From: Glandiceps talaboti
Taxonomy: Eukaryota > Hemichordata > Enteropneusta > Spengelidae
NCBI RefSeq assembly: GCF_964340395.1
Contig: NC_135557.1
Location: 21,521,225-21,585,224 of the forward strand
Direction of reading: 5' to 3'
Length of the DNA: 64,000 bases
Numbering within the stretch: position 1 is the stretch's first letter; every line of letters starts with the position of its first letter. The notes beneath the pieces are model-generated. The model was not told where the DNA came from and did not search any database. It was given only the letters and a program-made list of their open reading frames with translations. The position numbers and the translations under genes were made by a program. Of the stretch, positions 2,323 to 29,133 are shown piece by piece.

Positions 2323-3110
2323 TTACAAGATTAACACTGTGATGTAGTCATAGTCATAGACATGTGTAATAAAAATCTTGGTTGTCTTTTCGTCACTGAT
2401 TTCTATGAACCTAGGTCCCACTATGTCAGAGTGTACAACTACAAACTCTCTATTCTCTGTTACCATAACAACTCTATTATTGCCCCAATCACAAATATAA
2501 ATATTATTTCTTTTATCAACACACTGTCCAGTGGCATTAAAGCTGTGATCATATGAAGATATAAACTTTAGATTTGAATCATAAAAATTTATCCCTTTGC
2601 TATGTGACATAACAACCTTCTGGTCACTTGTTACAGCCACTGACCAGGGGTCACTAAACTGACCTTCACTCTGAACTTGACCTTTAACCTCTGTAACCTT
2701 GTCTCCCATTGTTGTGAACTTAATCAGTCTATGTCCCCTGAAGTCAGTAGCTAATACAAAGTTACCCATGACAGTTATACCCCATAGATCTTCATTTTGA
2801 CAAATAATTCTGATTATTTTCTTATTTTGATTTGTCACAATAATTTGTTTATTACCATCATCATATATGAAATATAGGTTGTCATGGGATACTGCTATGT
2901 CCCATGGTTTGAAGGGTTGTGGAAATTCATCTGTATATGTAATAAAATCAAGACATTGAAATTCTTTGTTTAAAATCTGAATTCGTTGATTCCCATATTC
3001 ACAGACCAGTAGTAAATCGGTTGGAGTCATGGCCATACCACTGGGACTGTTGAACTCTACAGAACCTTCACCTCTCTGGCCAATTCTGTCCTTTGACCAC
3101 TGTGATGTAC
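2323..3110 (-). CDS. NHL-repeat beta-propeller, terminal coding exon
   Basis: About 262 residues of NHL-type propeller. Successive blades carry the usual core: a glycine-rich turn followed by a P-x-G-(I/M)-A step (SPSGMAMTP, then KPWDIAVS, then DPWSVAVTS) and blade ends such as [11 protein letters not shown] and [13 protein letters not shown] propellers bind RNA or protein, as in TRIM-NHL ubiquitin ligases; no RING or B-box is visible here. The open frame runs up to 3165, but a clear acceptor (CTTTTCATAG) places the exon start at 3110, in phase 1. That matches the phase-1 donor of the exon at 11898 and gives an Arg codon across the junction. The stop is at 2323-2325. It could instead be the last exon of a separate TRIM-NHL-like gene whose other exons are lost or not recognised. 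Confidence 0.78.

Positions 3111-29133: not shown

Follow-up and report, generated by a model that had tools for sequence, protein, structure and literature searches.

Recurrent joining of GT4, TRADD-N-like and NHL domains in the acorn worm Glandiceps talaboti, with hypervariability on one face of the NHL propeller

Results

Structure and domains of LOC144439694

The window analysed here is a 64,000-nucleotide stretch (C10:21521225-21585224) of the 590 Mb assembly of the hemichordate Glandiceps talaboti, and it carries on its minus strand, at positions 2323-29133, the predicted gene LOC144439694. Rebuilt from splice sites, the complete coding gene comprises 21 exons running from 29133 to 2323, with GT-AG introns throughout; the joined coding sequence of 5055 nucleotides is a multiple of three, all phases are compatible, and the product is 1684 amino acids long, followed by a stop codon. 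A search of public proteins returned the NCBI model P0001 (LOC144439694 isoform X2, G. talaboti), which is 100% identical over the full 1684 amino acids. Because the identity runs from end to end, an independent annotation reached the same joins, including the last intron of 8.8 kb, which both models span; the agreement is one between two computer predictions. A single 21-exon gene with compatible phases and a length divisible by three had been proposed in an earlier note made from the sequence alone, and both lines agree with it.

Exon 2 (23890-25201, minus strand like all exons of the gene; amino acids 15-451) encodes a degenerate GT4-conflict domain, matched by PF20706 over amino acids 38-422 in a Pfam scan of the whole protein (expectation value, E, 2.4e-22; 79.9 bits against a cut-off of 26). 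Active GT4 glycosyltransferases are defined by the glutamate pair of the EX7E motif. In the alignment this pair is absent from the window protein, which has K337 and H345 at the corresponding positions (24209-24235), in keeping with the degenerate GT-B fold read by the earlier note. Exons 3-4 (22642-23404) form, by eye, a low-complexity linker.

Exon 5 (21746-22159, amino acids 512-649) has a TRADD-N fold over its whole length, as judged by AlphaFold and structural alignment. The predicted structure contains two kinked helices and a four-stranded sheet, the RRM-like arrangement described for the TRADD-N superfamily (Kaur et al. 2021, PMC8195603, cited throughout from part of its text). A conserved serine in the beta2-beta3 turn is a further mark of this superfamily (PMC7159879); S69 of exon 5, where strand 59-66 turns into strand 69-76, is that serine, and the turn holds a serine in 11 of 12 aligned TRADD-N-like exons, the window's included, with a cysteine in the remaining one. 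Profile searches were less productive. No Pfam TRADD model matched exon 5 at E up to 10; PF20694 was the best match in all five paralogous exons scanned, out of 12 found, each time below cut-off (E 1e-4 to 0.04). A profile built from three TRADD-N-like pieces had no match among PDB sequences at E up to 10, and Foldseek alone gave nothing at 1e-3, 1f3v_A standing at rank 22 (E 0.055). Since the TRADD Pfam models all fall below cut-off, exon 5 is called TRADD-N-like by its fold. The TRADD-N module that the earlier note had placed at amino acids 570-648 therefore stands as a fold, one that takes in the whole exon, but not as a Pfam assignment. A sub-threshold Pfam TRADD_N match at amino acids 698-752 (E 0.14 when the whole protein was scanned and 0.0031 for a 510-amino-acid piece) was rejected, because exon 5 has the TRADD-N fold and the match was gone (E up to 10) from a scan of amino acids 710-888, which covers exon 8 and part of exon 9 and omits the first 12 residues of the match.

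Downstream of this front half, exon 8 (19644-19907) encodes a short recurrent domain of unassigned kind with at least 21 genome matches, itself included (match counts in the genome are lower bounds throughout), several of which lie, by eye, between GT4 and NHL places. Exon 9 (18859-19530) has the sequence pattern of a coiled coil, partly kept in the sister gene P0017 (39% over 83 amino acids). An acidic linker follows, encoded by the phase-1 exons 10-17 (15488-18319), of which exons 11-17 encode 33-40 amino acids each. PF02809 matches two stretches as ubiquitin-interacting motifs (UIMs), the better at amino acids 1365-1378 (14486-14527; E 8.4e-7, 28.8 bits against a cut-off of 21) and the other, positioned from the UIM_2 row, at amino acids 1387-1400 (14232-14273), alone on exon 19. 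The UIM-bearing exon has only three copies among the genome matches listed, so ubiquitin binding would probably be restricted to a small subset of family members. Between exons 17 and 18, the intron contains, by eye, a decayed repeat of the first part of exon 18 and what may be a short alternative terminal exon (about 14815-14900 and 15040-15070, minus strand).

An entire six-bladed NHL propeller is encoded by the single exon 21 (2323-3110, amino acids 1423-1684). Pfam recognises two NHL stretches, the best at amino acids 1442-1468 (53.4 bits against a cut-off of 20), the predicted structure has 24 strands in a six-bladed fold, and the nearest solved folds are TRIM-NHL domains, RNA-bound Lin41 and Brat among them. 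The earlier note had read both the UIMs and the propeller correctly. The Pfam scan of the whole protein contained no RING or B-box (E up to 1), no STAND NTPase domain, no death-fold family (a very divergent one could escape) and no cell-surface domain, signal peptides and membrane segments lying beyond its coverage.

A large family with a recurring domain order

The GT4 exon has at least 97 matches in its own genome, itself included, and the best-scoring paralog is 29% identical. LOC144439694 is thus a member of a large expanded family and not the lone scaffold that had been envisaged. At 10 of the 20 paralog loci inspected, each over about 8 kb, the GT4 exon is followed on its own strand by a TRADD-N-like exon. 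Within 20 kb of 100 GT4 places, TRADD-N was found downstream on the same strand in 18 cases and never upstream or on the opposite strand; likewise, within 20 kb of 42 TRADD-N places, NHL in an open frame of less than 400 amino acids was found downstream 16 times and never upstream or opposite, and NHL in long, TRIM-like frames was never found downstream over that distance. At 60 kb the counts were 23 downstream versus 6 upstream from GT4 to TRADD-N, and 23 versus 9 from TRADD-N to NHL. Eight ordered GT4-TRADD-N-NHL exon triplets were present in the genome, the window counted. In a strand-flip control of GT4-NHL pairs, which used the best 122 of 155 genome matches, 18 of 100 were paired within 30 kb (mean of flips 8.9) and 27 within 60 kb (mean 14.5), and none of 2000 flips reached the observed pairing at either range. 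At 100 kb, NHL was found on the same strand 30 times downstream and 16 times upstream, and 7 times on the opposite strand; tandem arrays would explain the common upstream NHL at this range, which makes the 20 kb TRADD-N test the cleaner one.

Annotated proteins repeat the combination. A second G. talaboti gene, P0017, has GT4 and NHL both above the Pfam cut-off in its NCBI model, together with a TRADD-N-like piece recognised by reading of the sequence. GT4 and NHL are also above cut-off in the NCBI models P0002, P0004 and P0006 of Ptychodera flava; in P0012 of the same species NHL is above and GT4 just under the cut-off, and in P0011 both are under.

The EX7E glutamate pair is intact in 15 of 67 aligned GT4 rows (a subset of the 100 GT4 places, with one locus entered twice, L006 = L029), among them the NHL-associated place at 22.1 Mb (E, E). 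Elsewhere the two positions hold mostly V and A in the NHL family of P. flava (E once replacing V), M and T in the genes at 5.66, 5.75 and 5.07 Mb, and Q and E in P0017. With its pair lost, the GT4 domain of the window gene is probably not an enzyme and would serve as a binding or regulatory part; some of its relatives may be enzymatically active.

Further copies of parts of the gene were observed. Two more tails, comprising exon 8, coiled coil, UIM and NHL and 74-88% identical, lie at C10:21482727-21501919 (minus strand) and C10:21183119-21211226 (plus strand); neither is adjoined by a GT4 or TRADD-N match among the genome matches listed, and they may be truncated duplicates or serve as alternative ends. 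At C10:21211002 the NHL piece covers 75 amino acids inside an open frame of 1762 amino acids. A second array of GT4/TRADD-N/NHL-type exons occupies C18:18.0-22.3 Mb, where NHL varies, by eye, mainly at its start and in the later blades.

Divergence of the NHL exon is out of step with the front half

Between gene types the NHL exon is 81-91% identical and the GT4 exons 19-26%. Recent duplicates display the reverse in their proteins: in three pairs, replacement/silent differences were 5/15 in GT4 versus 31/8 in NHL (Fisher p 7e-5), 8/7 versus 62.1/9.9 (p 0.008) and 13/19 versus 46.5/9.5 (p 9e-5), so that GT4 is conserved while the NHL protein changes. The frames of all 15 NHL copies are open. 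Of the biallelic site pairs, 54% (666/1225) are four-gamete incompatible, and the NHL exon and its flanking DNA have differing histories. The NHL exon is most likely a cassette swapped among loci that bear different front halves.

Hypervariability is concentrated on one face

Across the 15 copies, the whole-exon ratio of replacement to silent differences per site (pN/pS) was 2.01 (bootstrap 1.38-3.13), falling to 1.41 (0.88-2.65) once columns with four or more residues were removed; it was 1.51 (1.00-2.25) for 13 copies of the C18 array, a set that excludes L062 (58-61% identical). Silent sites are less diverged than the flanks, and the ratio is therefore inflated if conversion homogenises the exon. 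A comparison of hot codons with flanks is independent of silent sites. Eleven hot sites, defined as ungapped columns with at least five different residues (12 once gapped columns are admitted), hold 38% of the replacement differences and reach a pN of 0.56, against a flanking divergence of 0.02-0.12 and of 0.023 in the 4.x Mb group (flank means exclude copy 4.52, whose 3' flank is unalignable). By contrast, 173 of 257 NHL codons are invariant in protein. The hot residues are 1444, 1462, 1507, 1532, 1546, 1547, 1576, 1593, 1654, 1656 and 1675, with codons starting at 3048, 2994, 2859, 2784, 2742, 2739, 2652, 2601, 2418, 2412 and 2355, respectively; in exon 21 the hypervariable codons span 2353-3048 (minus strand).

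The side of a propeller that carries the d-a and b-c loops is usually called its top face. Of the 32 sites at which at least three residues occur, 25 fall in these top loops, seven in strands and none in bottom loops (p 6e-10), faces being assigned from the strand list of the predicted model and not from residue coordinates. The bias recurs in the C18 array (21 of 35 top, one bottom; p 3e-5) and in P. flava (15 of 23 top, two bottom; p 4e-5), both mapped onto the window's strand list through alignments of ~25-35% identity. Moreover, of the 16 positions at which G. talaboti shows at least four residues, 11 are variable in P. flava as well (p 1e-9; three to five sequences per column). The NHL top face looks like a diversified recognition surface directed against many targets. 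This hypervariability, the most informative part of the system, was missed by the earlier note.

Discussion

A fixed frame with near-saturated change on one face, behind front modules of the immunity and cell-death kind, favours an intracellular receptor in which a TRADD-N adaptor, accompanied by a degenerate GT4 domain, carries a germline-diversified NHL recognition propeller; we hold this reading with moderate confidence. The top face of the propeller would bind a variable ligand, which is probably a molecule of a pathogen; the coiled coil with the acidic linker would join several receptor copies, and the TRADD-N domain would recruit a signalling partner. The two UIMs, in their subgroup only, would bind ubiquitin carried by the target or by the signalling complex. 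GT4, which in this gene lacks its catalytic pair, would probably have a binding or regulatory role. The NHL cassette would be exchanged across loci, with selection on one face, in preference to another diversifying process, maintaining diversity. It is an even call whether acorn worms possess a class of germline-diversified intracellular immune receptors of this sort, in which the frame of a single-exon NHL propeller is homogenised between loci, one face is selected to near saturation, and the cassette is joined to GT4/TRADD-N fronts of ancient divergence, in a manner resembling variable and constant parts.

Other explanations can be set against the receptor. The propeller could act, as in TRIM71 or Brat, as a regulator that binds RNA or protein, its variation reflecting target switching in transcript or developmental control, and the closest solved folds are indeed TRIM-NHL domains, RNA-bound Lin41 and Brat included; but the Pfam scan found no RING or B-box, a few near-saturated positions over many similar copies are unlike a conserved regulator, and the literature treats TRADD-N and GT4 as conflict modules (PMC8195603), which makes such a role unlikely. 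Slightly less credible still is allorecognition, with propellers discriminating between self and non-self among tissues or gametes. HET-E-like fungal NLRs, which bear hypervariable WD40 repeats, do mediate incompatibility between individuals (PMC4986451, also cited from part of its text); in the acorn worm gene, however, TRADD-N and UIM point to intracellular signalling, and no cell-surface domain appeared in the Pfam scan, which is blind to signal peptides and membrane segments. That GT4 is an active glycosyltransferase effector which the NHL domain merely directs to an invader would accord with the proposal that GT4 proteins act as effectors (PMC8195603) and with the rows that retain both glutamates, the 22.1 Mb place included, yet the K and H of the window gene and the V (once E) and A of the P. 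flava NHL family speak against it, and we regard it as improbable.

The 54% of incompatible site pairs and the differing histories of exon and flanks would suit a pattern that arose passively from gene conversion and relaxed constraint, with no selection for diversity. Relaxation, however, would not keep 173 of 257 residues invariant, no bottom-loop site has three or more residues, and hot-codon pN far exceeds the flank value of the 4.x Mb group, leaving this explanation very improbable. The 8.8 kb last intron and the computer-predicted status of both joins would suit an artefact in which exon 21 belongs to a gene of its own, misjoined to the front; GT4 and NHL are nevertheless joined above cut-off in two models of G. 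talaboti and three of P. flava, and the genome-wide exon order agrees, so that we consider an artefact the least likely account.

In TRIM-NHL proteins (TRIM2, TRIM71, Brat, Thin), RING and B-box precede NHL; the G. talaboti gene has neither in the Pfam scan, and its NHL domain, unlike theirs, is hypervariable on one face between similar copies. The GT4-TRADD-N(-LRR) proteins begin with the same pair of domains, identically ordered, and likewise have a lineage-specific expansion and a proposed immune role, but their named partner is LRRs where the G. talaboti gene has an NHL propeller and UIMs (PMC8195603). GT4 and TRADD-N are described there as immune modules in hemichordates, cephalochordates and cnidarians, which supports the immunity-type reading of the earlier note and means that the pairing of GT4 with TRADD-N is not new. 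No paper joining TRADD-N and NHL was found in the literature searched, and 'NHL' is absent from the main text of PMC8195603, its figures and source data lying outside this check. What extends beyond that paper is the recurrent GT4-TRADD-N-linker-NHL order and the hypervariability of NHL on one face. The amphioxus DED-TRADD-N-linker-WD40 proteins share TRADD-N, a flexible linker and a variable C-terminal propeller, the variability of which is ascribed to recombination; they differ in having WD40 rather than NHL, a variable repeat number and DED in place of GT4, and a site-wise or face-wise analysis of their propellers was not met in the text examined (PMC8195603). HET-E-type fungal NLRs likewise place hypervariable repeats, under concerted evolution, behind varied N-terminal domains, but their repeats are shuffled within and between genes, whereas in G. 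talaboti it is entire single-exon NHL cassettes, sited at different loci, that differ from one another (PMC4986451 for the fungal proteins); a STAND NTPase, moreover, is not found in the G. talaboti gene by Pfam scan.

Diversified recognition surfaces outside antibodies include LRRs, lectins and fibrinogen domains. Fungal WD40 repeats provide a further case (PMC4986451). If the receptor reading is true, a diversified NHL face on a hemichordate TRADD-N adaptor would be a new recognition fold, and its ligand and repertoire would become directly testable. The literature searched contained nothing that brings NHL domains together with positive selection, immunity and hypervariability, or NHL-repeat expansion together with amphioxus; among the matches listed for gene conversion of beta-propeller immune receptors in invertebrates none concerned NHL by title, and nothing relevant by title was met on NHL repeat hypervariability in hemichordates. 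Literature on acorn worms and NHL concerned teneurins, and that on the G. talaboti genome amylases.

Other features of the window

Beyond LOC144439694, a 45-base tandem repeat of ~45 copies occupies 30228-32247, with one minus-strand frame open for 681 amino acids. A single-exon frame at 46771-47853 (plus strand) matches galactose-3-O-sulfotransferase (1.5e-39), and two further single-exon frames much like it, at 54950-56035 and 61518-62555 (both minus strand), are apparent sulfotransferase copies. Pieces resembling a retrotransposon reverse transcriptase (by eye) lie beside a sulfotransferase copy, at 53730-54381 and 56701-57120 (minus strand).
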